Positions 19,851 through 35,256 of a stretch of 35,601 bases of DNA are shown here, piece by piece. The stretch's first letter is position 1. Each line of letters begins with the position of its first letter. The notes under the pieces are model-generated. The model was not told the origin of the DNA, made no database searches, and saw only the letters and a program-made list of their open reading frames with translations. This stretch comes from a virus. The position numbers and the translations under genes were made by a program. Where the stretch lies: IMG/VR virus record IMGVR_UViG_3300021963_000365, positions 1 to 35,601 of that record; one strand, given 5' to 3'.

Positions 19851-20868
19851 TATTTACTCCATATTTAAATTCTTGTTGTACTGCTTCTTCAAGCAGCGCC
19901 ATTACCGATTCAGTATAATATTTCTCTGGCTCTTCATTAATGTTTTTACCAAAGCAGCTTGACCCATCAGGCAGTTGATACCGCGTTGAAACTTTCTTAA
20001 AGATCTTATACTTTTCAGCCAACTCTAAGAGGCCGTAGTACCGATCGAGCCCTTTGGCATAAGTAAGTAGCACTTCGATTTGGCTGTTCTCTTTTGAGAG
20101 TCTGGACTTGTACATTTTAACTTTGATGATGTTTCCGATGACATCTGCACCATCTTTTTCTTTTCGTTTGGAGAGCATAGCAATAGTGCTCGCTGCGTAC
20201 TTGAGGCCTGTTCCACCACTCAACTCCTTTGTAGGCACGTATGAACCGACTAGCTCATAGACGTGATTGGTCACTAACAAAGGGATTTTAACCTTTGCCA
20301 GCTTCAAAGTCAACACACGAAATGCTGCTTTGATAATTTGTGATTTGGTCATGTCTCTTGTATCTTTGCCTTCCAAACTATCTTCCATCTCTTTAGAAGT
20401 AGATAACTGGCCAAGACTATCAAGGACAAACATCATAGGTGGTCGTGTTTTCTCGTCTTGCTTTTCATATGCATCAATCAATTTCAATGCGTGTGTTTTA
20501 AATTTCTGAATTGTGTCTGGTTCTGCAATAATGATTCGCGATGTATCGATCCCACGATCTTCCATCATTGATTTGGTAATCGCAGCTTCCGTATCGTAAT
20601 ATACTACTCCTCCGGTTGGATTTTTTTCAAGGAAGGATCTGACGACCCCAAGAATGAAAAAAGTTTTACCAGTAGCGGACTCTCCTGCAAAAGCAGTAAC
20701 TTTATTATCAGGTACGCCGCCATAGAGGCTACCTGAGAGAACAGCGTTGAGAGCGTAGCTGCCAGTATCAATAAAACCCCCAAACTCAGCGCTACCAGTG
20801 CCGTCAGAGGCCATAGAAGTATCTTCATCTCTTAACTCCTTCACCAACATCTTAAAAAATTCACTCAT
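19840..20868 (-). CDS. uvsX: RecA-like recombinase UvsX
   Basis: Catalyses strand exchange and recombination-dependent replication. The RecA core is visible: Walker A-like AFAGESATGKTFFILG (about 56-65), a VVYYDTEAAITKSM segment, MFVLDSLGQL (Walker B), and a KIPLLVTNHVYE strand with AGG-like STGLKYAAS further on. I chose ATG 20868, giving 342 residues. GGAG lies nine bases upstream and the frame before it belongs to the end of the upstream gene. T4 UvsX is 391, and aquatic T4-like copies are near 340-350. It sits upstream of the oxygenase and gp41. Confidence 0.92.
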   Translation of the reverse strand: MSEFFKMLVKELRDEDTSMASDGTGSAEFGGFIDTGSYALNAVLSGSLYGGVPDNKVTAFAGESATGKTFFILGVVRSFLEKNPTGGVVYYDTEAAITKSMMEDRGIDTSRIIIAEPDTIQKFKTHALKLIDAYEKQDEKTRPPMMFVLDSLGQLSTSKEMEDSLEGKDTRDMTKSQIIKAAFRVLTLKLAKVKIPLLVTNHVYELVGSYVPTKELSGGTGLKYAASTIAMLSKRKEKDGADVIGNIIKVKMYKSRLSKENSQIEVLLTYAKGLDRYYGLLELAEKYKIFKKVSTRYQLPDGSSCFGKNINEEPEKYYTESVMALLEEAVQQEFKYGVNNDE

Positions 20869-21052
20869 CGTCAAGATCTCCAAGAACATCTGCTATATAA
20901 TTAAAATACCCACGAGCAAAGTCATCCGCATCAGCTTCTTCACCTTCAACGTTTAGGTATGGGTTAGAATATTTTTGATCCGCAGCTGCTTGATCATATC
21001 CTTGTTTATATGGTGCTTCCGCATACTTGCTGATCTTTGTTGCTTTCTTCAT
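20861..21052 (-). CDS. Small acidic hypothetical protein (63 aa)
   Basis: The sequence begins MKKATKISKYAEAPYKQGYDQAAADQKY and ends YIADVLGDLDDE. It is basic at the N-terminus and acidic at the C-terminus, with several aromatic residues (GYDQ, NPYL, GYFNY). No domain is recognised. It overlaps uvsX by eight bases downstream, and its upstream neighbour overlaps by ATGA. The context suggests it is a replication or recombination accessory of the uvsX operon, but this is only from position. Confidence 0.65.
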   Translation of the reverse strand: MKKATKISKYAEAPYKQGYDQAAADQKYSNPYLNVEGEEADADDFARGYFNYIADVLGDLDDE

Positions 21053-21231
21053 CTATCCTGCTCCATCTCTAGTTGTTTCATGTAATGATCATACAGGTTA
21101 TTATATGCTCTTACAATTGCTGGTGATACAGTATTAAACTGTTCATGCTCTTGTCCAACTGCATCTGCAAGAGCTCGAGACAATTTAAGCTCTATGGCTG
21201 TACCAATTGGATGTACTTCAAAATCTTTCAT
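21049..21231 (-). CDS. Small hypothetical protein (60 aa)
   Basis: A soluble, predicted helical protein starting MKDFEVHPIGTAIELKLSRALADAV and ending KQLEMEQDR. No motif is recognised. It begins two bases after the methyltransferase gene stops and overlaps the next small gene by ATGA, so it is part of the methyltransferase-to-uvsX run. Confidence 0.65.
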   Translation of the reverse strand: MKDFEVHPIGTAIELKLSRALADAVGQEHEQFNTVSPAIVRAYNNLYDHYMKQLEMEQDR

Positions 21232-21232
21232 A

Positions 21233-21850
21233 TTAAACCTTAATTAATGTTAAGTAAAATGATGATTGTCTTACCATTTGCTCTTCTGTAAACAAATCGT
21301 CACTGCACGGCAGTAATTTAAATTTAGCAAATTGTTTTAGCCACCATTCTTTTGGACGCAATGTTACATGATGTGGCTCGTCTAAAAAAGTCGCTATGCT
21401 GCAAACAAATAAACCATTCATCTTCAAGTTGTTGCGAATGTTAATTATTAAACCAGAAACATCTATTTCTGGAATATGCTCCATTACATCCCACGCTGTG
21501 ATAAGATCACATACCCCTGTAACACTTCTATCTTGGACAATAAAAAATGGTTTTGTTATGTCCGCCGTAAAGAGATTGTCAGGAATTGTAGCCCACTCTG
21601 CTCTTTTATGCTTCAGAGAAAAATCACTACCCTCAATACCAATTGCTTCATGCCCATCATCAAGCATATCTTTCACTAACCCACCACCTGAACATCCAAG
21701 ATCGGCCATGACAATCTTTTTACCATTTGTGATTTCATTTAGTCTTGCTACAAATTCAGGCTTATGTGTATTATCAACCATAGTACCTTTTGGCTCTATG
21801 TGATCATGGCTTTCATATGCGATAGGGAAGTCCGTTAAAACAGTTATCAT
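21233..21850 (-). CDS. SAM-dependent methyltransferase-like protein (205 aa)
   Basis: Class I methyltransferase: motif I KIVMADLGCSGGGLVKD near residue 45, EAIGIEGSD (acidic end of strand 2), and ITAWDVMEHIPEID (post-motif typical of small-molecule or sugar methyltransferases). The C-terminal HHVTLRPKEWWLKQFAKFK is shared in pattern with the methyltransferase at 15268-15786, so the two are likely paralogous. Unlike that gene it sits in the replication run between small genes and gp43. No DNA-methyltransferase motif (such as DPPY) is seen. Substrate unknown. Confidence 0.75.
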   Translation of the reverse strand: MITVLTDFPIAYESHDHIEPKGTMVDNTHKPEFVARLNEITNGKKIVMADLGCSGGGLVKDMLDDGHEAIGIEGSDFSLKHKRAEWATIPDNLFTADITKPFFIVQDRSVTGVCDLITAWDVMEHIPEIDVSGLIINIRNNLKMNGLFVCSIATFLDEPHHVTLRPKEWWLKQFAKFKLLPCSDDLFTEEQMVRQSSFYLTLIKV

Positions 21851-22146
21851 ATTGATTTTTTCTTTATGTGATTGCCCCCAATATTGTCAAGTTTAGTTTT
21901 AAATTGACTAATCTTCTGACTTCGGTTAGGCCATTTAATAATATCCATATCCGGATTGGCATTAAGATTTTTCAAAAGAGGCAGTACTGCATCATACATC
22001 TGTTGAAGCTTTGTTGTCAACATTTCTATTTCGGTCTGATGTGTTTCTTTTTCTTCTTCTGCAATAGAAGTAAGTTCTTTCTCATCAATGATTGTAAATC
22101 CAAAATCATCATCATCAAAAGAAGCTATCGATAGTTTGCTGGTCAT
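21847..22146 (-). CDS. Hypothetical coiled-coil protein next to gp43 (99 aa)
   Basis: An acidic start (SFDDDDFGFTIIDEKELTSIAEEEKE) leads into a predicted coiled coil (about 30-62, HQTEIEMLTTKLQQMYDAVLPLLKNL). The end is basic and contains DIIKWPNRSQKISQFKTKLDNI. I recall a similar WP.R...I..F..KL pattern in small proteins of T4-like marine phages. It overlaps the 3' end of gp43 by 32 bases, and GGAAG lies before its start. Function unknown. Confidence 0.7.
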   Translation of the reverse strand: MTSKLSIASFDDDDFGFTIIDEKELTSIAEEEKETHQTEIEMLTTKLQQMYDAVLPLLKNLNANPDMDIIKWPNRSQKISQFKTKLDNIGGNHIKKKSI

Positions 22147-24886
22147 TTTGTTCTTCCCACTCTATGGCTTGCATGATTGTTCTTAGTGGCTCAAGGAATG
22201 CTTTGTCAAACTGGGTATCATAGTCTAGGTACTTGTCCATTCCCAATTCTTTTGGCAACTTTCCCGGTGTTGCGATAACGTTTGTAGGTAGTGGTGATGA
22301 ATCAAGAATGTAACAGAACTTGATCTTCTCGCCTTCACCAATCGGTACGTACTTTGCTCCAAGCTGTTTTATTCGAAGCAGATGATTATATATCAAAGCA
22401 CCTTTCACATGAATAGGTGTTCCTTTAAGAAAGTTAAGCGTGCCAGTGTTATATGATTTTTGAACTAATACACCGCCGGCGTACACATCTTTAGGTAAAA
22501 GACCTCTCACACTTCGTGGGAAAGCAATTTCTTCAAATGGTAACTTCTTAAAATCTTTCCTGTATTGTTTAATGAAAGCTTGAAGATCCTTTTCTTCTTT
22601 ATTCATAATAATATGGAAAGCATTCTTCAAATTTTCTCTACACGTTGCTGGTGTTGATGAGCGAACAGACTCAATACCCAAAATCTTGAGCTTTGGTTCA
22701 CTATAGCGAACACCCTCCAAGTCCCATACATTAAGGATATAATGTTTCTTGCCTGTCCATATTCCTTTGTTTGCAATCGCCTCGCGTTTCATCTTCATCT
22801 TCTGCTCATATGCAGAAACATAATCAGCAAGTTCTTGATAACACCTATCAATGTAAGGCTCAAAGCGAGATTGACATGCTCGGTCAATGAAATCAACAAT
22901 CTGCTCTTTTGTCATCTTTTCTGTAGCAGGACCATAAACTTTCTCAACAAACCTATCTAATGTAATGTACATCGAATCGGTATCAACAGCAATTACATAA
23001 TCGTAGTTATCTGTTTTTAGTAGATTGTTGAGGTATTCGTTTATCTTACGTTCCATCCAACGAATGGAAAGTTGTCCAGACTTTGTAATAGATTCAGCTA
23101 ACCTATTGTCAAACCATCTAAAGAACTGATTGGATAAAGCTCCATAAGCGGAGTTCAGTTGAATCTTTTTAGCAAGCTGCATGTTATGACAACGAGCAAT
23201 TTCATTGACAAGAGCCTGTGAAGGTGCTTGTTCATATGCTTTTTTTGCTTCAAGCATTCGCTTCTTCCAAGCTGAACGATCGTTGTACATTTTCTCCATT
23301 AGTGTAGGAAGAAAGCCACGCTCCGTCTTATCAAACAAACAACCTGTAGGTGTGATTGTACAGTTGTGTTTGTTCATAACATCTTTAACTGTTTCGAATC
23401 GTAAGAAATAATCAGCTTGTTTGAGAATGAAGTCTTGTTTACTATGCTCGACAATCTCCTGCTCAACCAAGCCATGGATCTGTGATTTGATTGCTTCGTA
23501 TGTGTTAGTAACTTCATCTGCTGAACGTGTACGATCAAGCTCCCCATCAAGGAACATATCAACGCTGCGTGAAGTGATTGCGAGATCATACTCAAGCATT
23601 TGACCCTTCAACGTCTCTGGTGAGATGTTGTACTGCATAATCAAATGTGGGTACAGACTATTCAAGTCAAATGATACAACCCATTTGTACATACCAGGCT
23701 TCGGATCTTTAACAAACGCTCCTTTAATCTGACGTGGTTTATCTCCACGCTCTTTAAGAGGAATGACGATCTTACGCTCGATAAGATAGTTGTGAATAAT
23801 AACATCCCACATACTTACTGTTGTGAGACTATCAATCATGTTAACTTTGCCGTCATATGCAATAGCATATACTTGATCAAGCAACTTCATCTTCTGGTCG
23901 AGTTTATACACCAAGTCCACATCTCGGATGTTATAGTTGATGTAATTACGGAAGTCACCCTTATAGAATTCATCTAGTGTCTCAAATCCCAACTCCGTAT
24001 AATCAAGTTTACGTTCACCAAGCTCAACAAACGCAATGTGATCTAGTTTGAAACTCTCTTGGTTTTGGAAAGAAAACTTCTTATACAACTGAAGGTAATC
24101 AAGGACATTAATACCAGCAGGTATATTCATGTACTCTATAGTATTAGAGGGTGTGGTTGGATCTTTTGATGTTGTGCGCGCAGAAGGTGTAGAATTTGGA
24201 TCACGTCTTTGTTCCCAAAGGTTCCATGGTGACAACCTCTTTGCCATCTTTTCATCAAACAACCGAGTGATACGGTTTATCAAGTAAGGGATATCAAAGA
24301 ACTCGATGTTCCATCCCGTAACAACATCTGGTAGCCATGCTTCCGAACGCCATATGTTGAGAAATTTCTCAATCATATCTCTTTCACTCACACACTCGAT
24401 ATATGATACGTAACTAAGCTCAGGTGTGTACGGTTTAAGACCAAATGTAATTGCACGTTGATCCTTGCGAATCGTGATTGCAGTGAGTGCCTTATCAGCA
24501 GTTTTGATATTAGGGAATCCACCTTCTGAATCGGTTTCAATATCAAGTGTGACAACACTTATAAGAGTTGGGTCGTAATTGACTTCACCAGGAAAGGCAT
24601 CGTTGATATACTGGTAATGAAATGACTCAGGACCATACCCGAACATTTCGTGACCTTTTGTCGATTTATATTGATTAATATATTGTGAGGCAGAACGCAT
24701 GGATCCATGCTCTATTTTAGATACACCTCTTCCATCAAGAGTCTTGTATCCTTCCTCACCAGAGTTACCCGTCAACACAAATGTGTATGGCGAGTATTCA
24801 ATAACGTCTTGGTATCTACGTCCGTCTTCATATCCACGGACGTAGATTTTGTCAAATGCTTTTAATACGTGTGTGTAAAATTTCAT
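22115..24886 (-). CDS. 43: DNA polymerase (T4 gp43-like, family B)
   Basis: The phage replicative polymerase with 3'-5' proofreading exonuclease. Exo I is in VVTLDIETDSEGGFP near residue 117, and WNIEFFDIPYL (Exo II region) lies about 195. Polymerase motif A is SFDLNSLYPHLIMQYN near 405, motif B is QLAKKIQLNSAYGALSNQ, and motif C is AVDTDSMY near 637. The C-terminal end (EEQNDQQTIDSFF) is a typical clamp-binding tail. The length is 923 residues (T4 898). It is uninterrupted by intein or intron. A candidate promoter lies 8-36 bases upstream. Its T4 partners regA-62-44-45 are about 5 kb away rather than adjacent. Confidence 0.96.
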   Translation of the reverse strand: MKFYTHVLKAFDKIYVRGYEDGRRYQDVIEYSPYTFVLTGNSGEEGYKTLDGRGVSKIEHGSMRSASQYINQYKSTKGHEMFGYGPESFHYQYINDAFPGEVNYDPTLISVVTLDIETDSEGGFPNIKTADKALTAITIRKDQRAITFGLKPYTPELSYVSYIECVSERDMIEKFLNIWRSEAWLPDVVTGWNIEFFDIPYLINRITRLFDEKMAKRLSPWNLWEQRRDPNSTPSARTTSKDPTTPSNTIEYMNIPAGINVLDYLQLYKKFSFQNQESFKLDHIAFVELGERKLDYTELGFETLDEFYKGDFRNYINYNIRDVDLVYKLDQKMKLLDQVYAIAYDGKVNMIDSLTTVSMWDVIIHNYLIERKIVIPLKERGDKPRQIKGAFVKDPKPGMYKWVVSFDLNSLYPHLIMQYNISPETLKGQMLEYDLAITSRSVDMFLDGELDRTRSADEVTNTYEAIKSQIHGLVEQEIVEHSKQDFILKQADYFLRFETVKDVMNKHNCTITPTGCLFDKTERGFLPTLMEKMYNDRSAWKKRMLEAKKAYEQAPSQALVNEIARCHNMQLAKKIQLNSAYGALSNQFFRWFDNRLAESITKSGQLSIRWMERKINEYLNNLLKTDNYDYVIAVDTDSMYITLDRFVEKVYGPATEKMTKEQIVDFIDRACQSRFEPYIDRCYQELADYVSAYEQKMKMKREAIANKGIWTGKKHYILNVWDLEGVRYSEPKLKILGIESVRSSTPATCRENLKNAFHIIMNKEEKDLQAFIKQYRKDFKKLPFEEIAFPRSVRGLLPKDVYAGGVLVQKSYNTGTLNFLKGTPIHVKGALIYNHLLRIKQLGAKYVPIGEGEKIKFCYILDSSPLPTNVIATPGKLPKELGMDKYLDYDTQFDKAFLEPLRTIMQAIEWEEQNDQQTIDSFF

Positions 24887-24893
24887 AAGAGAT

Positions 24894-24922
24894 ATTATAT
24901 ATCACACAACGAAGAAAAGCAA
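24894..24922 (-). promoter_or_regulatory. Candidate promoter of DNA polymerase gene (possibly middle-type)
   Basis: Minus strand: TTGCTT (24922-24917), a 17-base spacer and a perfect TATAAT (24899-24894), eight bases before the gp43 ATG. TTGCTT contains the TGCTT core of T4 MotA boxes, but the spacing to TATAAT (15 bases after the 9-mer) is longer than the usual 11-13. It may be a weak sigma70 or a middle promoter. The gp43 transcript would have almost no leader from this start. Confidence 0.4.
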
Positions 24923-24925
24923 CTA

Positions 24926-25012
24926 TCAATAATAATGTTTCAGTCTATTACTCGCACGTGCGTCAGCGTATTCTACTAGGAAATCCCAGCATGCGGAAAA
25001 AAATCTTTTCAT
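24926..25012 (-). CDS. Very small basic protein (28 aa)
   Basis: A short frame starting MKRFFSACWDFLVEYADARA and ending LKHYY. It begins in ATGA overlap with the 52-residue gene upstream, and short basic/aromatic proteins beginning MKxFF are common in this phage group. There is no domain. It is reported with caution because of its length. Confidence 0.45.
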   Translation of the reverse strand: MKRFFSACWDFLVEYADARASNRLKHYY

Positions 25013-25167
25013 AGCATTCCTCTTCTTTGTAGGTTTCTTAAAGTACGCTCTACATCAGCACCATCAACACAATGCTTAAAATATTGGTCGATCTCTTCTT
25101 GGTACGATGGTGCAAATGTTTTACGCACCCATTCCCATAATTTTTCTATATGCATGTTTCTACCCAT
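25009..25167 (-). CDS. Small hypothetical protein (52 aa)
   Basis: The protein MGRNMHIEKLWEWVRKTFAP... is helical with many aromatic residues, then SYQEEIDQYFKHCVDGADVERTLRNLQRRGML. I recall similar IEKLWEWV...RTxRxLxRRGM-type small proteins in aquatic T4-like phages, with no function. ATG 25155 (Met5) is an alternative start; neither has a strong Shine-Dalgarno. It lies downstream of the terminator at 25181-25207, so it needs its own promoter or read-through. Confidence 0.6.
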   Translation of the reverse strand: MGRNMHIEKLWEWVRKTFAPSYQEEIDQYFKHCVDGADVERTLRNLQRRGML

Positions 25168-25180
25168 ATGTCTTTTGAAC

Positions 25181-25207
25181 AAAAAAATGCCGGCACGAAT
25201 GCCGGCA
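25181..25207 (-). terminator. Rho-independent terminator with UUCG loop after Hsp20
   Basis: Minus strand: TGCCGGCA, TTCG, TGCCGGCA, then seven Ts. The 8-bp GC-rich stem is itself palindromic, and the loop is the very stable UUCG tetraloop. It sits 11 bases after the end of the Hsp20 gene and is the clearest terminator in the window. It separates the phasin-like/Hsp20 operon from the gp43 region. Confidence 0.88.
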
Positions 25208-25217
25208 CGCGATCACA

Positions 25218-25703
25218 TTAGTCTTTTGAACTTTCTGTGAGTAACTGCTTCTCTGCTTTTTTATCAGCTTTGATTTCGATTTTCTTTGGCTTCTTATGCT
25301 CTGGAATGATACGCTCAAGGAAAACCTTCAACATACCATTGATCATTTCAGCATCTTTAATTTCAATCTGATCTTCAAGAGCAAATGTACGAGTGAAGTT
25401 ACGATTAGCAATTCCTTTATACAAGAAATTACCATCTCCTTCTTCATTCTTTGCACTGCCTTTAATGATCATGTTGCTATCTTTAAGTTCAATTTCAATA
25501 TCCTGCCTTGCAAAACCGGCCACGGCGACTTCGATAACATATGTGTTATCGCCAGTTTTCTTAATGTTGTATGGAGGATAGTTGGGAATGTTTTTTGTCA
25601 GGTCATCATGTAGCTTTGCTATACGATTAAACTGATCATCAAAACCAACAAAGAAACGATCATAATCCTTGAATCCAGGACCGAACAATGATAGATGAGT
25701 CAT
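25218..25703 (-). CDS. Small heat-shock protein (Hsp20/IbpA-like)
   Basis: An ATP-independent chaperone that holds unfolding proteins. The alpha-crystallin domain spans about residues 40-140: YPPYNIKKTGDNTYVIEVAVAGF, then DIEIELKDSNMIIKGSAK, FLYKGIANRNFTRTFAL, and the NGMLKVFLERIIPEHKKPKKIEI end. N-terminal residues resemble IbpA (a GPGFKDYDRFFVGFDDQF-type start). 161 residues is normal. GGGAGG precedes the ATG. It follows a phasin-like gene behind a late promoter, and the stem-loop at 25181-25207 ends the operon. Many aquatic T4-like phages carry Hsp20, where a role in virion assembly has been suggested. Confidence 0.93.
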   Translation of the reverse strand: MTHLSLFGPGFKDYDRFFVGFDDQFNRIAKLHDDLTKNIPNYPPYNIKKTGDNTYVIEVAVAGFARQDIEIELKDSNMIIKGSAKNEEGDGNFLYKGIANRNFTRTFALEDQIEIKDAEMINGMLKVFLERIIPEHKKPKKIEIKADKKAEKQLLTESSKD

Positions 25704-25717
25704 AATAAACCTCCCAA

Positions 25718-25933
25718 TTACTTCTTAGCAGTAAACAACTTTGATACAACAACTTCTGCTGCAGCACCTGTCACATCCCAATAAGTCTTAGCGACTTGTT
25801 TGGTAAATGCTGTCTGTGCGTCAACAAATTGTTGGAGGGGTTTACGGACTTGTTCGTCTGTGACGAATGTTTTGAGCCAAGACGTCTTGGATGATTGAAT
25901 GGCATCAATAGCCATGTCTGCGTATAATAGCAT
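25718..25933 (-). CDS. Small helical protein, weakly phasin-like (71 aa)
   Basis: The start ATG 25933 is set by AAAGGAG five bases upstream; a longer frame to 25990 has no signal. The protein (MLLYADMAIDAIQSSKTSW...) is helical with an amphipathic middle: KPLQQFVDAQTAFTKQVAKTYW, then GAAAEVVVSKLF. The F.DAQT.FTK.V pattern resembles phasins, which coat polyhydroxyalkanoate granules, but it is short and the similarity is weak. It precedes Hsp20 in an operon behind a late promoter with a structured leader. The phasin idea is a low-confidence inference. Confidence 0.65.
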   Translation of the reverse strand: MLLYADMAIDAIQSSKTSWLKTFVTDEQVRKPLQQFVDAQTAFTKQVAKTYWDVTGAAAEVVVSKLFTAKK

Positions 25934-26042
25934 AATTGCTCCTTTAATAAGCGAGTTAATAAAATTTGCCAACCCCGAAGGCATCGGCACCGCTGGATAT
26001 TTTACTACCCTTCAGCGGCATGGTAGGTCTCATCACTGAGAT
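25934..26042 (-). promoter_or_regulatory. Structured 5' leader of the phasin-like/Hsp20 operon
   Basis: The about 109-base leader from the late promoter contains three stem-loops on the minus strand: TCTCA/TGAGA with a GTGA (GNRA-type) loop, CCGCTG/CAGCGG with a 17-base loop, and a short CC-TTCG-GG. A 21-codon frame (26021 down to 25959) is also open here, without a good Shine-Dalgarno. No gene fills this gap. The leader could influence stability or translation of the heat-shock operon. Confidence 0.45.
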
Positions 26043-26047
26043 ATATT

Positions 26048-26055
26048 TATTTATA
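26048..26055 (-). promoter_or_regulatory. T4-type late promoter (TATAAATA)
   Basis: A perfect late -10 element on the minus strand, located four bases after the rubredoxin stop. The predicted start is near 26042. It would drive the phasin-like and Hsp20 genes late in infection, ending at the 25181-25207 terminator. Confidence 0.65.
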
Positions 26056-26058
26056 TTC

Positions 26059-26190
26059 CTATTCCACTAGGACGTAATCTTCTTTTGACACACCACACTC
26101 CGGGCAGTTAACAAAATCAGGTAAGCTCAGATAATCAGCTTCTGATAAAGTGTGACCGCAGACAATACAAACGTAAACTTTTTCAGACAT
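26059..26190 (-). CDS. Rubredoxin-like protein (43 aa)
   Basis: A one-iron electron carrier with four cysteines. The two knuckles are YVCIVCGH (C8, C11) and NCPECGV (C29, C32), with the aromatic Tyr6 and the rubredoxin-type end KEDYVLVE. The protein is shorter than free-standing rubredoxins (about 52) and matches the C-terminal domain of rubrerythrins. The ATG overlaps the stop of the rubrerythrin-like gene (TAATG), so the pair are translated together. It should shuttle electrons to the diiron partner. The sequence was too short to be obvious as an ORF but the motif is unambiguous. Confidence 0.88.
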   Translation of the reverse strand: MSEKVYVCIVCGHTLSEADYLSLPDFVNCPECGVSKEDYVLVE

Positions 26191-26639
26191 TATAGAACCT
26201 CCAACAAATGTTGATATGCTTGTGCATGGCGCTTTTCTACTTTCGCAAGTGCCGCAAAACGCTTCTCTGCCTTATTCAACACATCCATAAATTGTTCAGC
26301 GTGTAGCTTGCTTTCCGCAATCTGATGTTCAGCTTCTGCTACAGCAAATAATTGTCCTTCACGTTCAGCATCTGCTTTGAATTCTGGATACATCGTAGTG
26401 AATTCATAAGTCTCACCTTCAATTGCTTTCTCCAAGCATTCTTTAGTTGAAGGCTTACCAATCAACAATTCAAGATGACCCCATGCATGAAGAAGTTCTT
26501 GGTCGGCGGTGTGCCAAAAATGTTTTGCAACATCTTCATATCCTTCTTCCATGGCAATCTTAGCGAAATACCGATACTTGATATGAGCCATTGATTCGCC
26601 AGCCAATGCGCTCTCAAGATTTTTTAATGTTACTGACAT
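26190..26639 (-). CDS. Rubrerythrin-like diiron protein, ferritin-like domain only (149 aa)
   Basis: Rubrerythrins reduce hydrogen peroxide at a diiron centre. The ligand set is present: E15 (LAGESMAHIKY), E48-x-x-H51 (TADQELLHAW), E76 and E79 (EGETYEFTTMYPEF), and E102-x-x-H105 (VAEAEHQIAE). The TMYPEF segment is highly characteristic of rubrerythrin. The usual C-terminal rubredoxin domain is missing and is encoded separately downstream. AAAGGAG precedes the ATG. A perfect TATAAT lies 28 bases upstream of the start. It is probably a phage peroxide-defence protein; host transfer is likely but cannot be dated. Confidence 0.9.
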   Translation of the reverse strand: MSVTLKNLESALAGESMAHIKYRYFAKIAMEEGYEDVAKHFWHTADQELLHAWGHLELLIGKPSTKECLEKAIEGETYEFTTMYPEFKADAEREGQLFAVAEAEHQIAESKLHAEQFMDVLNKAEKRFAALAKVEKRHAQAYQHLLEVL

Positions 26640-26666
26640 ATAAACTCCTTTTCAATTAGTTCTATT

Positions 26667-26672
26667 ATTATA
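26667..26672 (-). promoter_or_regulatory. Possible -10 box (TATAAT) for rubrerythrin-rubredoxin
   Basis: A perfect TATAAT on the minus strand in the 71-base gap before the rubrerythrin-like gene. No good -35 is seen at 16-18 bases (GGTTTT at 17), and the area is AT-rich. The promoter call is therefore weak. Confidence 0.25.
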
Positions 26673-26710
26673 TATTTCTATCAATTAAGAAAACCAATTG
26701 ATATTTTGAA

Positions 26711-27130
26711 TCAGAGTAATAGTAATTCAACGCCAGCTTCATCAAACATTATCTTTGAAGTATCAAAATTAAATCGCTTCGCTTGTGTCTCATTTGGTAC
26801 CGTGGTAACTACTGTTTTGATTCCACGCTGAATAATTCCTTTTGCACAATCTGTACAAGGAAACAAAGTACTGTAAAGCGTTGCACCTCTAACATCAGAA
26901 GCATTATCTAAAGCATTACGCTCTGCATGTGCAACAAACAATAACTTCATATCTCTATTATTGTATCGCTCTCCACAATCATATACACCACGTGGGAATC
27001 CGTTATATCCAAGACCGAGTACTTGCTTGTCATCATTAACGATAACAGCACCAACTTTAGTAGAAGGGTCTTTGGACCAGCCGGCCACGTGCTCGGCTAG
27101 ATCCAAAAACCGTTTATTCCAATCCGTCAT
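26711..27130 (-). CDS. cd: dCMP deaminase (zinc-dependent)
   Basis: Deaminates dCMP to dUMP, the substrate for ThyX. The zinc site is VAHAERNAL (H68-A-E70) and PCTDCAKGI (P91-C92-x2-C95), in normal order. The N-terminus MTDWNKRFLDLAEHVAGWSKDPSTKVGAVIV is typical of deoxycytidylate deaminases. At 139 residues it is shorter than T4 Cd (193) and closer to bacterial ComEB-type. It overlaps the metallophosphoesterase by ATGA. Together with ThyX, NrdA and dNMP kinase it forms the DNA precursor pathway. Confidence 0.92.
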   Translation of the reverse strand: MTDWNKRFLDLAEHVAGWSKDPSTKVGAVIVNDDKQVLGLGYNGFPRGVYDCGERYNNRDMKLLFVAHAERNALDNASDVRGATLYSTLFPCTDCAKGIIQRGIKTVVTTVPNETQAKRFNFDTSKIMFDEAGVELLLL

Positions 27131-27942
27131 ACTTCAATCACTTTCATTGGATCAAATTCAGGATTCACTTCGTACCCATGATAACCACGTGGGTTTGCAA
27201 CAACACGGCACGTGTTGATCATGTAATCTGAAGACGTATGAATGTGACCATGTGTCCAAAGTTTGATCATTGGATGATCGATAATGAAGTCAGTTAGATC
27301 GGATGCATAAGCACCGTTCAGTCTATCACCAACATATCGTCCACTAATAGATTGGAACGATGGTGCATGATGACCAACAACCACCATCTTATGTGGTGCT
27401 TCTGGGCTCCATGTCTCTTTAATGTACATTGCATCAATGTATGCAAGCATGTTCTTGTGATACATGATGGCATCATCGGGATGAAATTTACAACTTGGAT
27501 TACCCATTGCTACCTCACCGTTATAAACACCACGGTAGTCGTTCATCATCCTTTGTGCATCCCACTTAACTACTGGGTCGTTACGCTTGAAATCTGTCCA
27601 TAACGTACCACCCACGAATACAATATCGTCGATAACCACACTGTGAGTGTCGAGAATATGTAAGTTAGAAAGATGCGCATACTGACGGGAAAGTACATCA
27701 TAGGTATAAGCATAATTCCCATGGTAATGCTCATGGTTACCAAGAACGTATATAACATTTTTAAAATCCCTACAAACTTGTTCAAATAAATTTTGTGTGT
27801 TCTCTGTAGTCATGCTTTTAGGCATTTCCAGGTCAGCAGCAACAGTAATATCACCTGATAAGATTAGAACATCGGCACCAGCGTTGGGGATTTGAATATC
27901 CCCAAACTCAAGATGTAAGTCACTGACTATTTGTATCTTCAT
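27127..27942 (-). CDS. Calcineurin-like metallophosphoesterase (271 aa)
   Basis: A dinuclear-metal phosphoesterase. The family motifs are in order: SDLHLEFG (D8, H10), LSGDITV (GD near 30), VLGNHEHYHGN (GNHE near 67), VVGHHAPS (about 190) and WTHGHIHTS (GHxH near 232). 271 residues is normal. The substrate could be a nucleotide, a phosphoprotein or a nucleic-acid end. It lies between dCMP deaminase and a small gene, each overlapping, so it is part of an early-type metabolic run. The exact substrate cannot be told. Confidence 0.9.
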   Translation of the reverse strand: MKIQIVSDLHLEFGDIQIPNAGADVLILSGDITVAADLEMPKSMTTENTQNLFEQVCRDFKNVIYVLGNHEHYHGNYAYTYDVLSRQYAHLSNLHILDTHSVVIDDIVFVGGTLWTDFKRNDPVVKWDAQRMMNDYRGVYNGEVAMGNPSCKFHPDDAIMYHKNMLAYIDAMYIKETWSPEAPHKMVVVGHHAPSFQSISGRYVGDRLNGAYASDLTDFIIDHPMIKLWTHGHIHTSSDYMINTCRVVANPRGYHGYEVNPEFDPMKVIEV

Positions 27943-28216
27943 CGTATTCTACCTTGTGGATAAGTTTGTCACCAAGCCAATGGCAACACATTTCTTCCTT
28001 GTTTTGCTTAAGACGCTCCATTTCCTTTTGCAATTCTTCATATGTTACTTCACGTCCATCAATAATTTGCTCACCTAGATGGCGTTGTGTAACTTCCTCA
28101 AAATTGCGACTATGCTCTGTCATAACAAGCTCGTCATAAGCATGTTCCAACGTTTGTGCTTCGATCGCATACTTCATACGAAAGGTGCTGGTTGTATCAA
28201 TTAGGAAGATTGGCAT
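27920..28216 (-). CDS. Hypothetical protein (98 aa)
   Basis: Start chosen at ATG 28216 with AGAGG six bases upstream; the longer frame to 28306 is inside the upstream gene. The protein starts MPIFLIDTTSTFRMKYAIEAQTLEHAYDELVM and has HSRNFEEVTQRHLGEQIIDGREVTYEELQKEMERL, then CCHWLGDKLIHKVEYDED. It looks small, mixed alpha/beta and acidic. I recall an IDT.STFR.KY.I...A.HA.DE pattern from T4-like phages with no function. It overlaps both neighbours. Confidence 0.7.
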   Translation of the reverse strand: MPIFLIDTTSTFRMKYAIEAQTLEHAYDELVMTEHSRNFEEVTQRHLGEQIIDGREVTYEELQKEMERLKQNKEEMCCHWLGDKLIHKVEYDEDTNSQ

Positions 28217-28502
28217 GAAAAACCTCTTTAGGCATGTTAATGAGATTGGGATTGTCTTTAAAACGACCCATGTTATCAACTGGTCTGGAAGGTTTAGTAA
28301 ACACATCCATAGTCTGTTGACTTGCTACTTTAGGCTCATATATCGATCTAAGATGTATGTATGCCTGCATAGCATTACCAAATTTAGTCATAACATCTTT
28401 ATGAACAAGGAAAAAACCTTCGCTTTCTTGTACGCCAAGTGCAATAGCACCATCTGCATTTGTGAAAACGAAGCCGTCTGGGGTGGTAGAAAATGTAATC
28501 AT
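28197..28502 (-). CDS. Hypothetical protein, first leftward gene of the divergent region (101 aa)
   Basis: I chose ATG 28502 (protein MITFSTTPDGFVFTNADGA...). A strong sigma70-like promoter at 28509-28537 would start transcription almost on this ATG, and the upstream ATG at 28520 lies inside the promoter. The N-terminal half looks like beta strands (DGFVFTNADGAIALGVQESEGFFLV). The rest is helical, with YIHLRSIYEPKV, and ends PKEVFHANLPN. No domain is recognised. It leads the run towards dCMP deaminase. Confidence 0.7.
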   Translation of the reverse strand: MITFSTTPDGFVFTNADGAIALGVQESEGFFLVHKDVMTKFGNAMQAYIHLRSIYEPKVASQQTMDVFTKPSRPVDNMGRFKDNPNLINMPKEVFHANLPN

Positions 28503-28508
28503 GTGACG

Positions 28509-28537
28509 ATTGTACAACATATTAAAGTTATCGTCAA
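28509..28537 (-). promoter_or_regulatory. Sigma70-type promoter giving a near-leaderless mRNA
   Basis: Minus strand TTGACG (28537-28532, five of six), a 17-base spacer and TACAAT (28514-28509, five of six). The expected start is six to eight bases later, at or next to the ATG of the 28197-28502 gene (28502). The message would be leaderless or nearly so. Confidence 0.55.
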
Positions 28538-28575
28538 CTATAGCTAAATAGTTACTGGTTCTATCAAGAAAGCAA

Positions 28576-29379
28576 ATGGATCCGCTAACACTGCTGGCCC
28601 TGGCAAATGGGGCAGTTGCAGCCGTAAAAAAGGGCTGTCAACTCTATAAAGACATAAAAAGTGCAGCTGGTGATGTAAAAGGTGTTCTACAAGATATGGA
28701 AAAGCAGTTTGCTAAGCAGACTGAGGGTAAGCCGCCGACCAAAGAACAGAAACAACAATTTGAAGCAAAGAAAAAAGAAGTTGTCGAGAATCTTAAAAAA
28801 GATCCCAACGACATCATCGGAATCATTGGTGACCAATTAGGAACATTCTTCGATGCTATGGACAAGATTGAAGAATTATTCTACGAAGAAGAAAGAAAAG
28901 CTAAAGAAGTCTACACCGGCGATGTGTCTCTAAGCAAGAGAGCATTACAACGTGTATTGATTCGTTCCAGACTTGAACAGATGGAAGTTGAATTGCGTGA
29001 GCAAATGATCTACCACGTACCAGCAGATTTGAAAGATCTGTGGACACGATTCCAAGATATGCGTGGCCAGATTATTGAAGAACAAAAGGTTGCAAGAAAA
29101 ATAAAAGAAAAAGAAGATGCAATCAAGGCTGCTAAACGTAAAAAGAGAATGGAAACTCTCTCATTGGAAATTTCCTTGGTCGTAGGACTAATATTGATAT
29201 TTATTGTGGTCGGTGTTTTTTTTACGTGGCTTCACTTTGATAAGAAGAAGAGATGGCCAGAGCTAGAACAAAAAACTTATCAGCAAGAGTTGGAAAAGGA
29301 ACGGAAGCTGAGAAACGAAAAAATCCTAGAAGCAATTCGATACCTTGATGAAAAGAATCACGAACAAAACAAAAATTAA
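28576..29379 (+). CDS. Rightward membrane protein with long charged helices (267 aa)
   Basis: Starts MDPLTLLALANGAVAAVKKGCQLYKDIKSAAG, a hydrophobic helix then a basic segment. Long charged, coiled-coil-like helices follow (about 40-190), one clear membrane segment lies at about 200-220 (LVVGLILIFIVVGVFFTWL), and the C-terminal tail is strongly charged. I recall a MDP.TLLALA...AA..KGC.L protein in T4-like marine phages, sometimes regarded as structural. AAGAAAG lies a few bases before the ATG. It heads the only rightward operon in the window. Function unknown. Confidence 0.75.
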   Translation: MDPLTLLALANGAVAAVKKGCQLYKDIKSAAGDVKGVLQDMEKQFAKQTEGKPPTKEQKQQFEAKKKEVVENLKKDPNDIIGIIGDQLGTFFDAMDKIEELFYEEERKAKEVYTGDVSLSKRALQRVLIRSRLEQMEVELREQMIYHVPADLKDLWTRFQDMRGQIIEEQKVARKIKEKEDAIKAAKRKKRMETLSLEISLVVGLILIFIVVGVFFTWLHFDKKKRWPELEQKTYQQELEKERKLRNEKILEAIRYLDEKNHEQNKN

Positions 29380-29388
29380 TAGCACTAA

Positions 29389-29529
29389 ATGAAAAGAAAT
29401 AAGTACACATTTTTAGAATGGGTATTTGACAACGTTGGTTTTGGTAAATTTATCCTTATCCTTTATCTTGTTTTTATTTTGATATTATTAGGAACTCTCA
29501 GTGTAGTATTTGTAATTACTAAAAATTAA
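29389..29529 (+). CDS. Small rightward membrane protein (46 aa)
   Basis: Starts MKRNKYTFLEWVFDNVGFGKF and then has one strong membrane helix (about 21-42, ILILYLVFILILLGTLSVVFVI) with a short TKN tail. It starts nine bases after the upstream stop, and its own stop overlaps the next ATG (TAATG). It is likely an inner-membrane partner of the preceding gene product. No family recognised. Confidence 0.65.
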   Translation: MKRNKYTFLEWVFDNVGFGKFILILYLVFILILLGTLSVVFVITKN

Positions 29530-29828
29530 TGTCAAATAAAATAGTTTGGTATACAGTAGTAGCAGTTGCTGTTGCTGCTCCCTTAGTACCTGATCAGTAC
29601 CGGGTTAGTATTAACGTTCCTTCGCTGACACCAATATCAACCAAAAAATCAAATGACAATACTGTGGTGGCGGCATGTACGCTTGTACGTGAATCAAACA
29701 CGCCACAAGGAATGCACGTATGCGAGTACAAGTGTGAGGGATCTACTTCGTCTCTTTACAAGACTTCCATGACTAATAACTACGTCTGTGACAAAAATAT
29801 TAAAGAGCGAATAAAACCAGGTAAGTAA
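29529..29828 (+). CDS. Small exported or anchored cysteine-containing protein (99 aa)
   Basis: An N-terminal hydrophobic stretch (VVAVAVAAPLVP, about 9-20) suggests export or anchoring. The rest is Ser/Thr-rich and carries four cysteines (AACTLV, VCEYKCEG, YVCDKN) that could be disulfide-bonded outside the cytoplasm. It is TAATG-coupled to the membrane protein upstream. It ends two bases from the stop of regA, which reads in the opposite direction, so the two transcripts converge with no intergenic space. Confidence 0.65.
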   Translation: MSNKIVWYTVVAVAVAAPLVPDQYRVSINVPSLTPISTKKSNDNTVVAACTLVRESNTPQGMHVCEYKCEGSTSSLYKTSMTNNYVCDKNIKERIKPGK

Positions 29829-29829
29829 A

Positions 29830-30225
29830 TTAGGCTTTACGGCCAATGTTATACTTTGTCACCAACTCCCACTCATCTTTTTCTTTGAATGGTATAATTT
29901 TGATTTGAGACATTGGTGCAACGGGTTCTTTAGTTTTATCAGCATCAACTAATGTAACAAGACCCCACTCTGCAATCAAATTAGCAATCGTGTTTCTACG
30001 AGCTATATCTTCTTCCGAGAAATTAGAAGGCTTGCCATCTAAACCAAACAACTCTTTAAAATGTACGATGTAATATAAACCTTGCTTGTGGAGAATATGA
30101 CAAGACTGAAACAGTCGTTGTTCTTTCTTTGATGCAACACCAATCCTCGTAAGTGTCTCTCTTACTTTAAGGAAGTCTTCGTCAATCTTGAGTTTTACCT
30201 CTACTAGCGATTCGAGTTTGGTCAT
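29830..30225 (-). CDS. regA: Translational repressor RegA
   Basis: T4 RegA binds the start regions of early mRNAs (including 44 and 45) and represses translation. The similarity is direct: DEDFLKVRETLTRIGVAS, QSCHILHKQGLYYIVHFKEL, EDIARRNTIANLIAEWGL and DEWELVTKYNIGRK match the T4 protein pattern in order. I chose ATG 30225 (131 residues; T4 has 122). An earlier GTG (30237) is possible. It overlaps gene 62 by 44 bases, as the T4 order 44-62-regA predicts. Confidence 0.93.
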   Translation of the reverse strand: MTKLESLVEVKLKIDEDFLKVRETLTRIGVASKKEQRLFQSCHILHKQGLYYIVHFKELFGLDGKPSNFSEEDIARRNTIANLIAEWGLVTLVDADKTKEPVAPMSQIKIIPFKEKDEWELVTKYNIGRKA

Positions 30226-30595
30226 TATCTTCACCACGTTGTAATTTTTGTTTTATGTAGTGCAGGTTTTCTGACGTAAGTATAGATAGTGCTTGCGTTG
30301 CTTTTTCTGTGCTGTAACCATAAAATTGTTTAACTGCCGCAACATCCTCTATATTATCACGCTTCACCCACTTTGCAAACCTTTTTGCAGGTCGAATGCT
30401 ATTTAGAAGATAGTAATATTGGAGTTTATTATCAACACTAGCTCGATTCATCTCGTTTGCATAGAGAATAGTATCGGCAAAGTAGGAAAGCGTTTTATTG
30501 ACAACAAACGGCACATAATCCGATTCCGCAACACCCTCTTTAAATAAATCTTGTTTGTTGTGTGTAACGCTGTTAATAAAATCAAAAGGGCTCAT
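30182..30595 (-). CDS. 62: Clamp-loader small subunit (T4 gp62-like)
   Basis: gp62 joins four gp44 subunits to load the gp45 clamp. The start MSPFDFINSVTHNKQDLF, the SYFADTILYANEMNR segment, the KRFAKWVKRD segment and the YGYSTEKATQALSIL segment match gp62 of aquatic T4-like phages. T4 gp62 (187) is longer; copies of about 130 are usual in this group. ATG 30595 overlaps the upstream SDR gene by 14 bases. In T4 it directly follows gene 44; here three genes intervene. Confidence 0.85.
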   Translation of the reverse strand: MSPFDFINSVTHNKQDLFKEGVAESDYVPFVVNKTLSYFADTILYANEMNRASVDNKLQYYYLLNSIRPAKRFAKWVKRDNIEDVAAVKQFYGYSTEKATQALSILTSENLHYIKQKLQRGEDNDQTRIASRGKTQD

Positions 30596-31136
30596 ATACA
30601 ATATCTCTTACAATGAATCTGTGACGGTTTTCAAAAGCATACATTATAAGATCTGCTGCTGTTGAAGTCTCCATTTGCCATTTTTGCCTTGGTCGTAATA
30701 CACCATCAATTAAATTACCCATCTTACTCTCAAACGCTCCAGGACGAAAATTCATCAAAGCAGGCCATCCTTTCAATGCTTGAAGCTGCCTTATTTGTTC
30801 ATCGAGTGCAATTTTATGTATAGCGTAGGGGTGGTGTTTTGTTTTTTGGTGATAAGAAGTGTTGCTGCTTATATTAAGTACATATGTGTTGTTACGTCCA
30901 AACCAGGATTTGTATATAGCATTTAGAAGATCAACTTGCGCAAATCCCCAATAAGCATTATTAATAAAGACATCATAATCTTTTACTTGCTCAATTATAC
31001 TCTTTATGTTTTCACGAGATACTATATCATAACCATTAGAACGTGAGAAACCAAGCATGGCTTCCGCCTCAGGTTCAAACCGTTCCCATAACTGTTTGCC
31101 AAGACCAGATGTGTGCCCTGTAATAGCAACCTTCAT
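30582..31136 (-). CDS. Short-chain dehydrogenase/reductase-like protein (SDR, 184 aa)
   Basis: An NAD(P)-dependent oxidoreductase fold. MKVAITGHTSGLGKQL has the TGxxxGxG cofactor motif (T6 to G13). NNA is at 59-61, a serine pair is at 90-91 (LNISS), and the catalytic Y104-x-x-x-K108 (YAIHK) is intact. It is short (SDRs are usually about 250), lacking parts of the substrate-binding end, but it keeps the active-site tetrad. It is inserted between gp44 and gp62 genes, overlapping both neighbours. It could use a nucleotide-sugar or small metabolite; its placement in the clamp-loader operon is odd. Confidence 0.85.
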   Translation of the reverse strand: MKVAITGHTSGLGKQLWERFEPEAEAMLGFSRSNGYDIVSRENIKSIIEQVKDYDVFINNAYWGFAQVDLLNAIYKSWFGRNNTYVLNISSNTSYHQKTKHHPYAIHKIALDEQIRQLQALKGWPALMNFRPGAFESKMGNLIDGVLRPRQKWQMETSTAADLIMYAFENRHRFIVRDIVYEPF

Positions 31137-31420
31137 ACTAACATCCTTACAAGACCGACCGTATCAATTGTTGTTAGCAATAGATAGTTAGCGAGCATGC
31201 CAAAAGATTTCCTAGTCCAAGCAGCCCAAGCATACAAGGCACAACCAGTAATCCAAATAGGATAGAGAGCCAAAAGAGGTGGGTTTGGGACCGTGCTTGC
31301 CATAGTAATAGAGCAACCCACACTGATAGCCCAAGCAAGCAACTCAATACTAAAACGAATGCGGTTGGACTTATAATCACTGCGTATCCAGTCAAATGTT
31401 GGTTTAAAAAGATCTATCAT
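31133..31420 (-). CDS. Multi-pass small membrane protein (95 aa)
   Basis: ATG 31420 overlaps the stop of the upstream small gene (TAATG); a longer frame to 31456 is less likely. The protein begins MIDLFKPTFDWIRSDYKSNRIRF and has three probable membrane segments: LLAWAISVGCSITMAS, LLALYPIWITGCALYAWAAW and MLANYLLLTTIDTVGLVRM. The sequence pattern is known to me from T4-like phages without a function. A far resemblance to small PnuC-like transporters is possible but weak. It lies in the clamp-loader operon. Confidence 0.7.
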   Translation of the reverse strand: MIDLFKPTFDWIRSDYKSNRIRFSIELLAWAISVGCSITMASTVPNPPLLALYPIWITGCALYAWAAWTRKSFGMLANYLLLTTIDTVGLVRMLV

Positions 31421-31602
31421 TACCAATGCCTTATCACGCCTGCAATAATGAAGCAATTGGTGATAATATAACTAACAACAATCAAAGTCCTTATTACAGC
31501 AATCCTGTCAGCTTGCTGGTGACTTGGATGAGCCTTCTCTCCAAGCGCTCGTGCCCACAAGGTCCAATAATATTTTATATATGCACGTAGCTTGTACTTC
31601 AT
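31420..31602 (-). CDS. Small single-pass membrane protein (60 aa)
   Basis: A basic N-terminus (MKYKLRAYIKYYWTLWARALGEKAHPSHQQADRI) is followed by one C-terminal membrane segment (IRTLIVVSYIITNCFIIAGVI). The start overlaps the gp44 stop by ATGA and its stop overlaps the next membrane protein by TAATG. It probably forms an inner-membrane pair with the 95-residue protein. Unknown function. Confidence 0.65.
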   Translation of the reverse strand: MKYKLRAYIKYYWTLWARALGEKAHPSHQQADRIAVIRTLIVVSYIITNCFIIAGVIRHW

Positions 31603-32537
31603 TTAAACGAACACTCCACCATCACTTCTGTCATACATGCAGCAATGTTAATTTCTTGATCAGCGACAAATGCAGCTTGGTACTGATACTTAGCAAGAAT
31701 AAGAACAAGGTGAGCAGCTGAAGACGGATCCATCAATTCAAACGTTTGATCATAAAACTTTCTAAAAAATGTTGCAGTATCAACATCTGCATTCTCACCT
31801 ACCCATTTGCGGACATTGGAGAATTCTTTATTCTTTAGATATCCTATCAGTTGTTTGAATGATTCATCCTGCAAATCAGAAAGGATACCAACATCAATCT
31901 TACCTGAGGCAGCATAGCGCTGCAACTCATTAAGTACACGTCTCCAATCTGGGAAGTGTTTTGTTATGACGCTTGCAACTGCTTTTGGATCATACGGAAC
32001 ATCCTCTTTTGCAAGAACGGTACCAACACGTTTAAAAAACTGAGCAGCCAGCTGTGACTTCTCTTCTCTAGGAATAACAAAGTCAATGACACTCATTCGA
32101 GACCAAAGAGGCTCAATCAACTTGTTCTTAAAGTTGCATGTGAGAATGAAGCCACAGTTCTTACTGAACTGCTCGATGAAACCACGCAGTGCAGGCTGCG
32201 TACTGTTAGCATTCAAGTAATCGGCCTCATCTAAAATAACATACTTACGTCCACCTGTAAAGCTAACAGTAGAGGCAAAATTAAGAATATCATTGCGAAG
32301 AGTATCGATATTACCATGTAGACTGCCATTGATAAGGATATAATCAGCACCCAGCTGATCAAGCATAGCGCGAGCCACAGTGGTTTTACCAACACCAGCA
32401 CGACCAGTAAGCAACAAATTAGGAACAGTGTCATCATCAACGAATTGTTGGAACACTGTCTTCAAATGCTGAGGAAGAATGGTGTCCGCAATCGTACGTG
32501 GGCGGTATTTCTCCACCCAAAGAAAATCTTCTCTCAT
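31599..32537 (-). CDS. 44: Clamp-loader ATPase (T4 gp44-like)
   Basis: An AAA+ ATPase loading gp45. N-terminal FLWVEKYRPRTIADTILP is the clamp-loader start, Walker A is TGRAGVGKTTVARA (about 43-56), Walker B is YVILDEADYLN (about 98-108), and a SRMSVIDF segment carries the SRC-like arginine region. 312 residues (T4 319) is normal. It starts five bases after gp45 ends, as in T4 order 45-44. The small subunit gene 62 is displaced by three genes. Confidence 0.95.
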   Translation of the reverse strand: MREDFLWVEKYRPRTIADTILPQHLKTVFQQFVDDDTVPNLLLTGRAGVGKTTVARAMLDQLGADYILINGSLHGNIDTLRNDILNFASTVSFTGGRKYVILDEADYLNANSTQPALRGFIEQFSKNCGFILTCNFKNKLIEPLWSRMSVIDFVIPREEKSQLAAQFFKRVGTVLAKEDVPYDPKAVASVITKHFPDWRRVLNELQRYAASGKIDVGILSDLQDESFKQLIGYLKNKEFSNVRKWVGENADVDTATFFRKFYDQTFELMDPSSAAHLVLILAKYQYQAAFVADQEINIAACMTEVMVECSFK

Positions 32538-32542
32538 ATTGA

Positions 32543-33205
32543 TTAGTTATTAAAGGTTGAATGATTTGAATCCGCCATTATCCAATATTCTACATCACTT
32601 CCCTTAAAATGTGAAATGTTCTTTGAAGAAATTTCCACATCATAGTCACCAGGCAATATTTTAATGTTCTCAGCTTTAAAAGCAAACTTAAATGTATAGT
32701 TACTAAGGCCAACTTCGATCTTAAAAGTATCACTTGTTGGATCCGATGGCTTACCAACCCCAATTGTTACATTCTCTCCATCGCCCTCAACAATAATGTG
32801 AGTCGATTGTAAAGCACCCAAAGCTCTCATTGCTGATTGCAAATTCTCTGCTGTTAGCTTGAAAGCAATCTCAGGCTCTGATACGTTTGGTGTTTTTGAT
32901 GGAGGAGCAACAATCAATTCAGGATCAGCAAAGGTGTATGCTACCTTTTGACGTCCCTGACTAATCAATACCTTTGTATCATCATATTCAATCTCTGGTT
33001 CATTGAATAGCGATAACACTCCAATGAACCGTGACAGATCAAAGATAGCAAACTCTTTTGGAAAGCTCTCTCCGATTGTCGTTCTTGCTAAGATATTCCG
33101 TTGTGGCCCGATAGTAGTTTGTACACTACCTTCGCGAAACAGCATCGATGGATTAATCATAGCAAAGTTTTTCAATATCTGCATCGTGCGGTTTTCAAGT
33201 TTCAT
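32543..33205 (-). CDS. 45: Sliding clamp (T4 gp45-like)
   Basis: A homotrimeric processivity clamp for gp43, also needed in T4 as the mobile enhancer of late transcription. The start MKLENRTMQILKNFAMINPSM and later segments FPKEFAIFDLSRFIGVLSL, LTAENLQSAMRALGALQ and DYDVEISSKNISHF match T4 gp45. 220 residues (T4 228) is normal. ATGA overlap with the upstream glycosyltransferase-like gene. Its presence agrees with the T4-type late promoters seen at 10484 and 26048. Confidence 0.95.
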   Translation of the reverse strand: MKLENRTMQILKNFAMINPSMLFREGSVQTTIGPQRNILARTTIGESFPKEFAIFDLSRFIGVLSLFNEPEIEYDDTKVLISQGRQKVAYTFADPELIVAPPSKTPNVSEPEIAFKLTAENLQSAMRALGALQSTHIIVEGDGENVTIGVGKPSDPTSDTFKIEVGLSNYTFKFAFKAENIKILPGDYDVEISSKNISHFKGSDVEYWIMADSNHSTFNN

Positions 33206-34059: not shown

Positions 34060-34060
34060 G

Positions 34061-34687: not shown

Positions 34688-35256
34688 TGCCACTCCTTCA
34701 TTATACTATCCATAACACATCTTACTCTTTGCTTCAGATAATCCATGTCACCATCATTCATAAGTACTCGGTCTACTAAGTGGTCATCAAAAGCTCTTTC
34801 TGTAATGTGACCATCATACTGATACTGAGGTCTAATAATTTTAATAATCTTTGCACCAAGACCTTTAAGCACACTATACTCATTATCAAAACGTAGATCA
34901 GTCACAACCCACAAGTCTGAAGGCAGATACCTAATCTCATTGACAACATAGTTAGTGAATTGCTTCTCATCATACCTACGCATCAACATACCAATTTCAC
35001 GGACTACATGCCTTCCAGCAACAACACGTGACACCGAATCATCAATATTAAAATACAACGATGTGCGCTTGAATGTGTCGTACTGATCATTATCAGTCGA
35101 GTCTAAATTAAAGATATGCTGTACTTCTTTTTTAATTGGATCAGCAAACGCAATCGTATGTACGTTGTACTTAAAATACATCTCTTTGATCAACTGACCA
35201 ACAGTATCCTTACCAGATCCTTTCGGTCCGGTAAGAGCAACAATCTTTAAACTCAT
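34684..35256 (-). CDS. 1: Deoxynucleoside monophosphate kinase (T4 gp1-like)
   Basis: Phosphorylates dNMPs to dNDPs. The P-loop is VALTGPKGSGKDTVGQ (about 6-20), followed by TIAFADPIKKEVQHIF, the phage dNMP kinase signature. A later DLWVVTDLRFDNEY segment (D-R pair) is also typical of gp1-like kinases. 190 residues (T4 gp1 241) is shorter than T4 but common in this group. It overlaps the genes on both sides by ATGA. It completes a pathway with the dCMP deaminase, ThyX and RNR. Confidence 0.88.
   Translation of the reverse strand: MSLKIVALTGPKGSGKDTVGQLIKEMYFKYNVHTIAFADPIKKEVQHIFNLDSTDNDQYDTFKRTSLYFNIDDSVSRVVAGRHVVREIGMLMRRYDEKQFTNYVVNEIRYLPSDLWVVTDLRFDNEYSVLKGLGAKIIKIIRPQYQYDGHITERAFDDHLVDRVLMNDGDMDYLKQRVRCVMDSIMKEWQ

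Follow-up and report, generated by a model that had tools for sequence, protein, structure and literature searches.

A rubrerythrin gene joined to a shortened rubredoxin gene: a probable peroxide-removing pair of uncultured T4-like phages

The "cyanobacterial-type" (group 5) rubrerythrins comprise single-domain proteobacterial forms as opposed to fused cyanobacterial ones (Cardenas et al. 2016; PMC5114695). A cyanobacterial rubrerythrin, RbrA of Anabaena, is described as an NADPH-driven H2O2 peroxidase that works with ferredoxin-NADP reductase (FNR) (Zhao 2007, reviewed in PMC6616624), and ferriperoxin, a protein without a rubredoxin domain, likewise depends on FNR for its peroxidase activity (PMC3317640). 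Rubrerythrin has also been recorded as a viral auxiliary gene, in viruses from silage (PMC10146946) and from the gut (PMC10199544). The IMG/VR virus record IMGVR_UViG_3300021963_000365, a T4-like phage fragment of 35.6 kb (35,601 nucleotides, referred to below as the window), encodes a rubrerythrin followed by a separate, very small rubredoxin. The pair is genuine and conserved, a phage counterpart of one already known to detoxify peroxide in bacteria, and, by analogy with characterized relatives, the two proteins probably cooperate in clearing hydrogen peroxide from infected cells.

The two open reading frames (ORFs) are joined by TAATG, as an earlier note on this DNA had stated and as can be read directly from the sequence. 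A protein scan of IMG/VR found relatives encoded in 518 stretches; the counts of pairs that start from the rubrerythrin come from a set of 85 distinct coding sequences of the best loci. The search for adjacent pairs in viral sequences, which the same note had proposed, finds the rubredoxin next to the rubrerythrin in 82 of the 83 distinct viral relatives for which the downstream sequence is available, and the reverse search, starting from the rubredoxin, finds a rubrerythrin directly upstream in 79/79 loci with room for it, none of them fused. The genes overlap by 1 nt in 54 and by 4 nt in 23 of the 82 pairs (77 overlapping pairs). In all 82, the rubredoxin starts with ATG and the ORFs are separate, unlike the classical fused form, which has a C-terminal rubredoxin domain in the same chain. 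A GGAG or GAGG motif precedes the rubredoxin start in 81 of the 82 pairs, versus 9.3 expected in shuffled sequences. Both genes are under purifying selection, with a median ratio of nonsynonymous to synonymous polymorphism (pN/pS) of 0.12 and 0.14 in the least-saturated pairs, and of 0.25 and 0.31 in all pairs. The pairing is far above chance and, because the junction and the ribosome-binding site recur, both genes are under purifying selection and the reverse pairing is complete, the two-gene state is real and selected. Gene structure, conservation, selection, near-obligate pairing, and family membership are all direct observations.

These genes are likely to constitute an operon with coupled translation that encodes a peroxide reductase of two components. 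Such a two-part enzyme in a phage had been suggested in the earlier note, and the family match, the pairing, and the conservation make it the best reading of the locus. The 149-residue diiron rubrerythrin would reduce H2O2 to water, and the 43-residue rubredoxin, a separate soluble protein, would serve as its one-electron donor and would be recharged by an NAD(P)H-dependent flavoprotein of the host, so that electrons would pass from NAD(P)H through the host flavoprotein, the phage rubredoxin, and the phage rubrerythrin to H2O2. The pair lies among the replication (early/middle) genes of T4-like phages, a position from which it would act during phage DNA synthesis. The occurrence of the same pairing in bacteria, where in one case (a Vampirovibrio genome) it immediately follows a gene for thiol peroxidase, argues for this function. 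That the rubrerythrin contains iron and acts as a peroxidase, that electrons flow in this direction from a host reductase, and when and to what benefit the pair acts are extrapolated from characterized relatives.

Several points weigh against this assignment. The residue of the last helix that completes the diiron site is ambiguous, as a single-chain model would fit either of the two Glu/His sets described below. Further, the diiron site of Anabaena RbrA is reportedly reduced by FNR without the rubredoxin center (PMC6616624). Finally, no reductase of the PF07992 or PF00175 families scores above the cut-off in 15 related phage contigs (which may be fragments), so that the proposed chain would depend on a host enzyme. 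The main rival to rubredoxin as the donor, which we consider unlikely, is that host FNR reduces the rubrerythrin directly, as reported for RbrA, while the rubredoxin passes its electrons to a different acceptor or plays no more than an accessory part as donor. This alternative draws on the FNR dependence of RbrA and ferriperoxin and on the reported lack of involvement of the RbrA rubredoxin center (PMC6616624, PMC3317640), and the phage rubredoxin, being a separate protein, could diffuse away from the rubrerythrin. However, near-obligate pairing and coupled translation in the viruses favor a private partner over a route through FNR only, which makes the rubredoxin the more likely donor.

The rubrerythrin, correctly described in the earlier note as a 149-residue ferritin-like domain, is encoded on the minus strand and matches PF02915 with 56.5 bits (cut-off, 22.8) over residues 6 to 145. 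Its AlphaFold2 (AF2) model has a predicted local distance difference test (pLDDT) score of 91.4, and residues 1 to 128 of the model superpose on Burkholderia pseudomallei rubrerythrin and on sulerythrin with a Z score of about 14 and a root-mean-square deviation of 1.5 to 1.8. Residues E15, E48, H51, E76, E79, S110, H113, E135, and H138 are invariant across 67 relatives, and E109 is found in 66 of them. The view that all diiron ligands are present agrees with the invariance of E15, E48xxH51, E76xxE79, and E135xxH138, with a caveat on the last ligand pair: profile and structure alignments place S110/H113, rather than E135/H138, where the last helix usually carries its Glu/His pair. The canonical ExxH motif (E135xxH138) is on a C-terminal extension, beyond the region in which the model and the best-matching solved rubrerythrins superpose; AF2 draws this extension as a continuation of the last helix, with block-mean pLDDT values of 77 to 83. 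Residues 97 to 149 (window positions 26190 to 26351, minus strand) therefore contain two Glu/His sets, E109-S110..H113 and E135xxH138, conserved in the 67 aligned relatives, which perhaps reflect an internal helix duplication. A PHROGs family scan gave no convincing match for this protein, and a fold search of BFVD (viral protein structures) gave none at an E value of ≤0.001, so that pipelines relying on these resources would miss it.

It is possible, and at this stage a tentative proposal, that a phage-specific, near-obligate peroxide-reductase operon is common to many uncultured T4-like phages and combines a minimized rubredoxin with a diiron site whose last helix bears both conserved Glu/His sets, a geometry unseen in the best-matching solved rubrerythrins. 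The extension with its second conserved E/H set could also alter the site such that the diiron protein mainly oxidizes and binds ferrous iron (an anti-Fenton role as a ferroxidase) or has a different substrate, with peroxide reduction as a side reaction. This is improbable, as characterized rubrerythrins are peroxidases and a rubredoxin partner argues for a reductive cycle.

The smaller protein is a rubredoxin by its family profile and is predicted to bind one iron and to be reduced by a rubredoxin reductase. Taken alone, the 43-residue ORF scores 22.3 bits against the Pfam rubredoxin family (PF00301) versus a gathering cut-off of 23 bits, that is, 0.5 to 0.7 bit under it. Combined into a profile, 23 phage homologues do match rubredoxins of solved structure, the best being Rubredoxin 2 of Pseudomonas aeruginosa (2v3b), with an E value of 8.4e-12; PF00301 is matched by 23/23 phage members scanned, and the knuckle cysteines are invariant in the family. 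The earlier identification of a 43-residue rubredoxin with four cysteines is thus borne out by its two knuckles and by the family profile. The phage proteins have 17 or 20 residues between the cysteine pairs, versus 29 in bacterial relatives. Weak zinc-ribbon matches in single-sequence scans, along with the score of the window copy just under the rubredoxin cut-off, might suggest a zinc ribbon that carries no electrons, which the family profile and the Pfam matches make improbable; moreover, the protein occupies the same position as the full-length rubredoxin in bacterial relatives.

The idea that the two ORFs are a fused rubrerythrin broken by a sequencing or assembly error, or else the remnant of a decaying host gene fragment, can appeal to the fused state of classical rubrerythrins and of the cyanobacterial forms of group 5 and is hardly credible, given the recurrence of the junction and ribosome-binding site in 82 distinct viral sequences, all with ATG and none fused, the purifying selection on both genes, and the split in bacterial relatives. 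A fusion lost to a sequencing error, which the earlier note had named as its own refutation, is contradicted by the retention of the pair, nearly always overlapping, in all but one of the 83 viral relatives; a frameshift or a broken or lost fusion is ruled out by independent viral contigs with the identical split. Host contamination is ruled out by the T4-type phage genes that flank the pair.

Among the 80 best bacterial loci, nearly all from Beta- and Gammaproteobacteria, 76 encode a separate rubredoxin just downstream, and 3 of the other 4 end at a contig edge. The rubredoxin in these pairs is mostly 54 residues long and follows after a gap with a median of 62 bp (up to 278 bp). In cyanobacterial relatives, the rubrerythrin continues into a long fused rubredoxin with CxxCS as its first cysteine pair. 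A split as such is ordinary in bacteria, and the claim that it is unusual did not survive: the nearest bacterial relatives carry the same two genes side by side, and single-domain proteobacterial forms have been described (PMC5114695). Judged by its nearest relatives and by the tree, the window rubrerythrin groups with the cyanobacterial fused and proteobacterial single-domain forms. Specific to the phages are the single clade, the tight overlap, the shortened rubredoxin, and the place among T4 replication genes. In a tree of 102 sequences, whose bootstrap had not fully converged, the phage proteins form one fully supported clade on a long stem, nested near betaproteobacterial sequences. A copy from a Vampirovibrio metagenome-assembled genome (MAG) groups within the phage clade and away from other members of its own class. 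These placements suggest that the pair was likely transferred between phage and bacterium, in either direction. On the Vampirovibrio chromosome (locus L153, positions 4340 to 5700), the phage-type pair directly follows a thiol peroxidase gene.

The features of the locus are listed in Table 1. The window encodes a T4-type replication set (family B DNA polymerase, helicase, primase, UvsX, sliding clamp, and clamp loader), with the DNA polymerase showing ~45% identity to those of Synechococcus T4-like phages; positions 20000 to 35600 yield only short similarity matches to isolate phages. An Hsp20 homologue is found near the pair, on the same strand, in 34/85 viral loci, and a dCMP deaminase homologue in 29/85. 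Hsp20 and the rubrerythrin-rubredoxin pair possibly form a stress module.

Table 1. Coordinates of the rubrerythrin-rubredoxin pair and neighboring features in the window
Feature	Position	Strand	Remarks
Shortened rubredoxin, 43 aa, C2-C3 spacing 17	26059..26190	-	Two CxxCG/CPxCG knuckles
Rubrerythrin-like diiron protein, 149 aa, cyanobacterial-type (group 5), without rubredoxin domain	26190..26639	-	PF02915, 5e-15
TAATG stop/start overlap	26188..26192	-	TAA (26192-26190) and ATG (26190-26188) share one base
GGAGG ribosome-binding site of rubredoxin	26198..26202	-	Within the last rubrerythrin codons
T4-like family B DNA polymerase	22115..24886	-	phrog_262, 1e-290; landmark of the phage replication region
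Hsp20 small heat-shock protein gene, downstream of the pair	25218..25703	-	PF00011, 5.8e-18; phrog_432
dCMP deaminase gene, upstream neighbor of the pair	26711..27130	-	phrog_174, 1.2e-48

The earlier note had also suggested protection of a phage diiron ribonucleotide reductase (RNR). No RNR subunit is found among the scanned proteins of the window, which is a fragment, and apart from the DNA polymerase it contains no ORF long enough for NrdA. The RNR small subunit (PF00268) is encoded in 9 of 15 related contigs, a count that, with no control for its frequency in T4-like phages, neither supports nor opposes such protection. Elsewhere in the window, a 610-residue protein (positions 11579 to 13411, minus strand) combines a C-terminal cytidylyltransferase match with a phage family of unknown function (phrog_455), and a 2-oxoglutarate-Fe(II) oxygenase (phrog_81; positions 19203 to 19850, minus strand) is encoded between the UvsX and helicase genes. 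A 267-residue ORF (positions 28576 to 29379, plus strand), on the strand opposite to its neighbors, has a hydrophobic segment, no NCBIfam match, and homologues in 7 viral loci. The window contains no tRNA or tmRNA genes.

No isolate among 50,697 phage records carries this rubrerythrin subtype; the only matches are the other subtype of phage Mosig and faecal fragments of 33 to 47% identity. No description of a rubrerythrin-rubredoxin pair in phages was found in the open-access literature searched, and the near-obligate, streamlined form that it takes in hundreds of uncultured viruses seems to be new to the literature. Its presence suggests that a broad group of uncultured T4-like phages commonly needs to control H2O2 while infecting, and that this need is under selection; it also offers a compact pair for testing.

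Among known systems, Pelagibacter phage Mosig EXVC030M (Kyanoviridae) also has a gene annotated as rubrerythrin near T4-type genes; unlike the window protein, to which it shows about 37% identity, its product has the canonical ExxH near the C terminus without an extension, and no rubredoxin gene adjoins it. The aerobic-type sulerythrin and ferriperoxin likewise have no rubredoxin domain, and the structural match to sulerythrin covers residues 1 to 128; in contrast to the window protein, they have no helix extension, and their genomic context is DUF3501 and an iron-sulfur oxidoreductase rather than a rubredoxin (PMC5114695). The group 5 rubrerythrins (PMC5114695) share with the phage protein the diiron domain and the invariant Q106/S110/H113/F117 and F128/E135/H138/Y142 motifs of the last-helix region; their cyanobacterial members are fused and have a long-spaced rubredoxin, whereas in the phage the rubredoxin is a separate and shorter protein. 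Anabaena RbrA is assigned to this group as a cyanobacterial rubrerythrin and not from an alignment of its sequence. The pairs of Aquabacterium, Rhodoferax, Polynucleobacter, Undibacterium, and other bacteria consist of a rubrerythrin of typically 150 to 158 residues, with 59 to 66% identity to that of the window, and a rubredoxin directly downstream, but they have an intergenic gap and the longer cysteine spacing where the phage pairs have an overlap and the shorter one. The pair of Vampirovibrio MAG DET50b is phage-like in its 77% identity, 1-nt overlap, and short rubredoxin (spacing of 20), and differs from the phage pairs in lying next to thiol peroxidase on a 1.49-Mb chromosomal contig.
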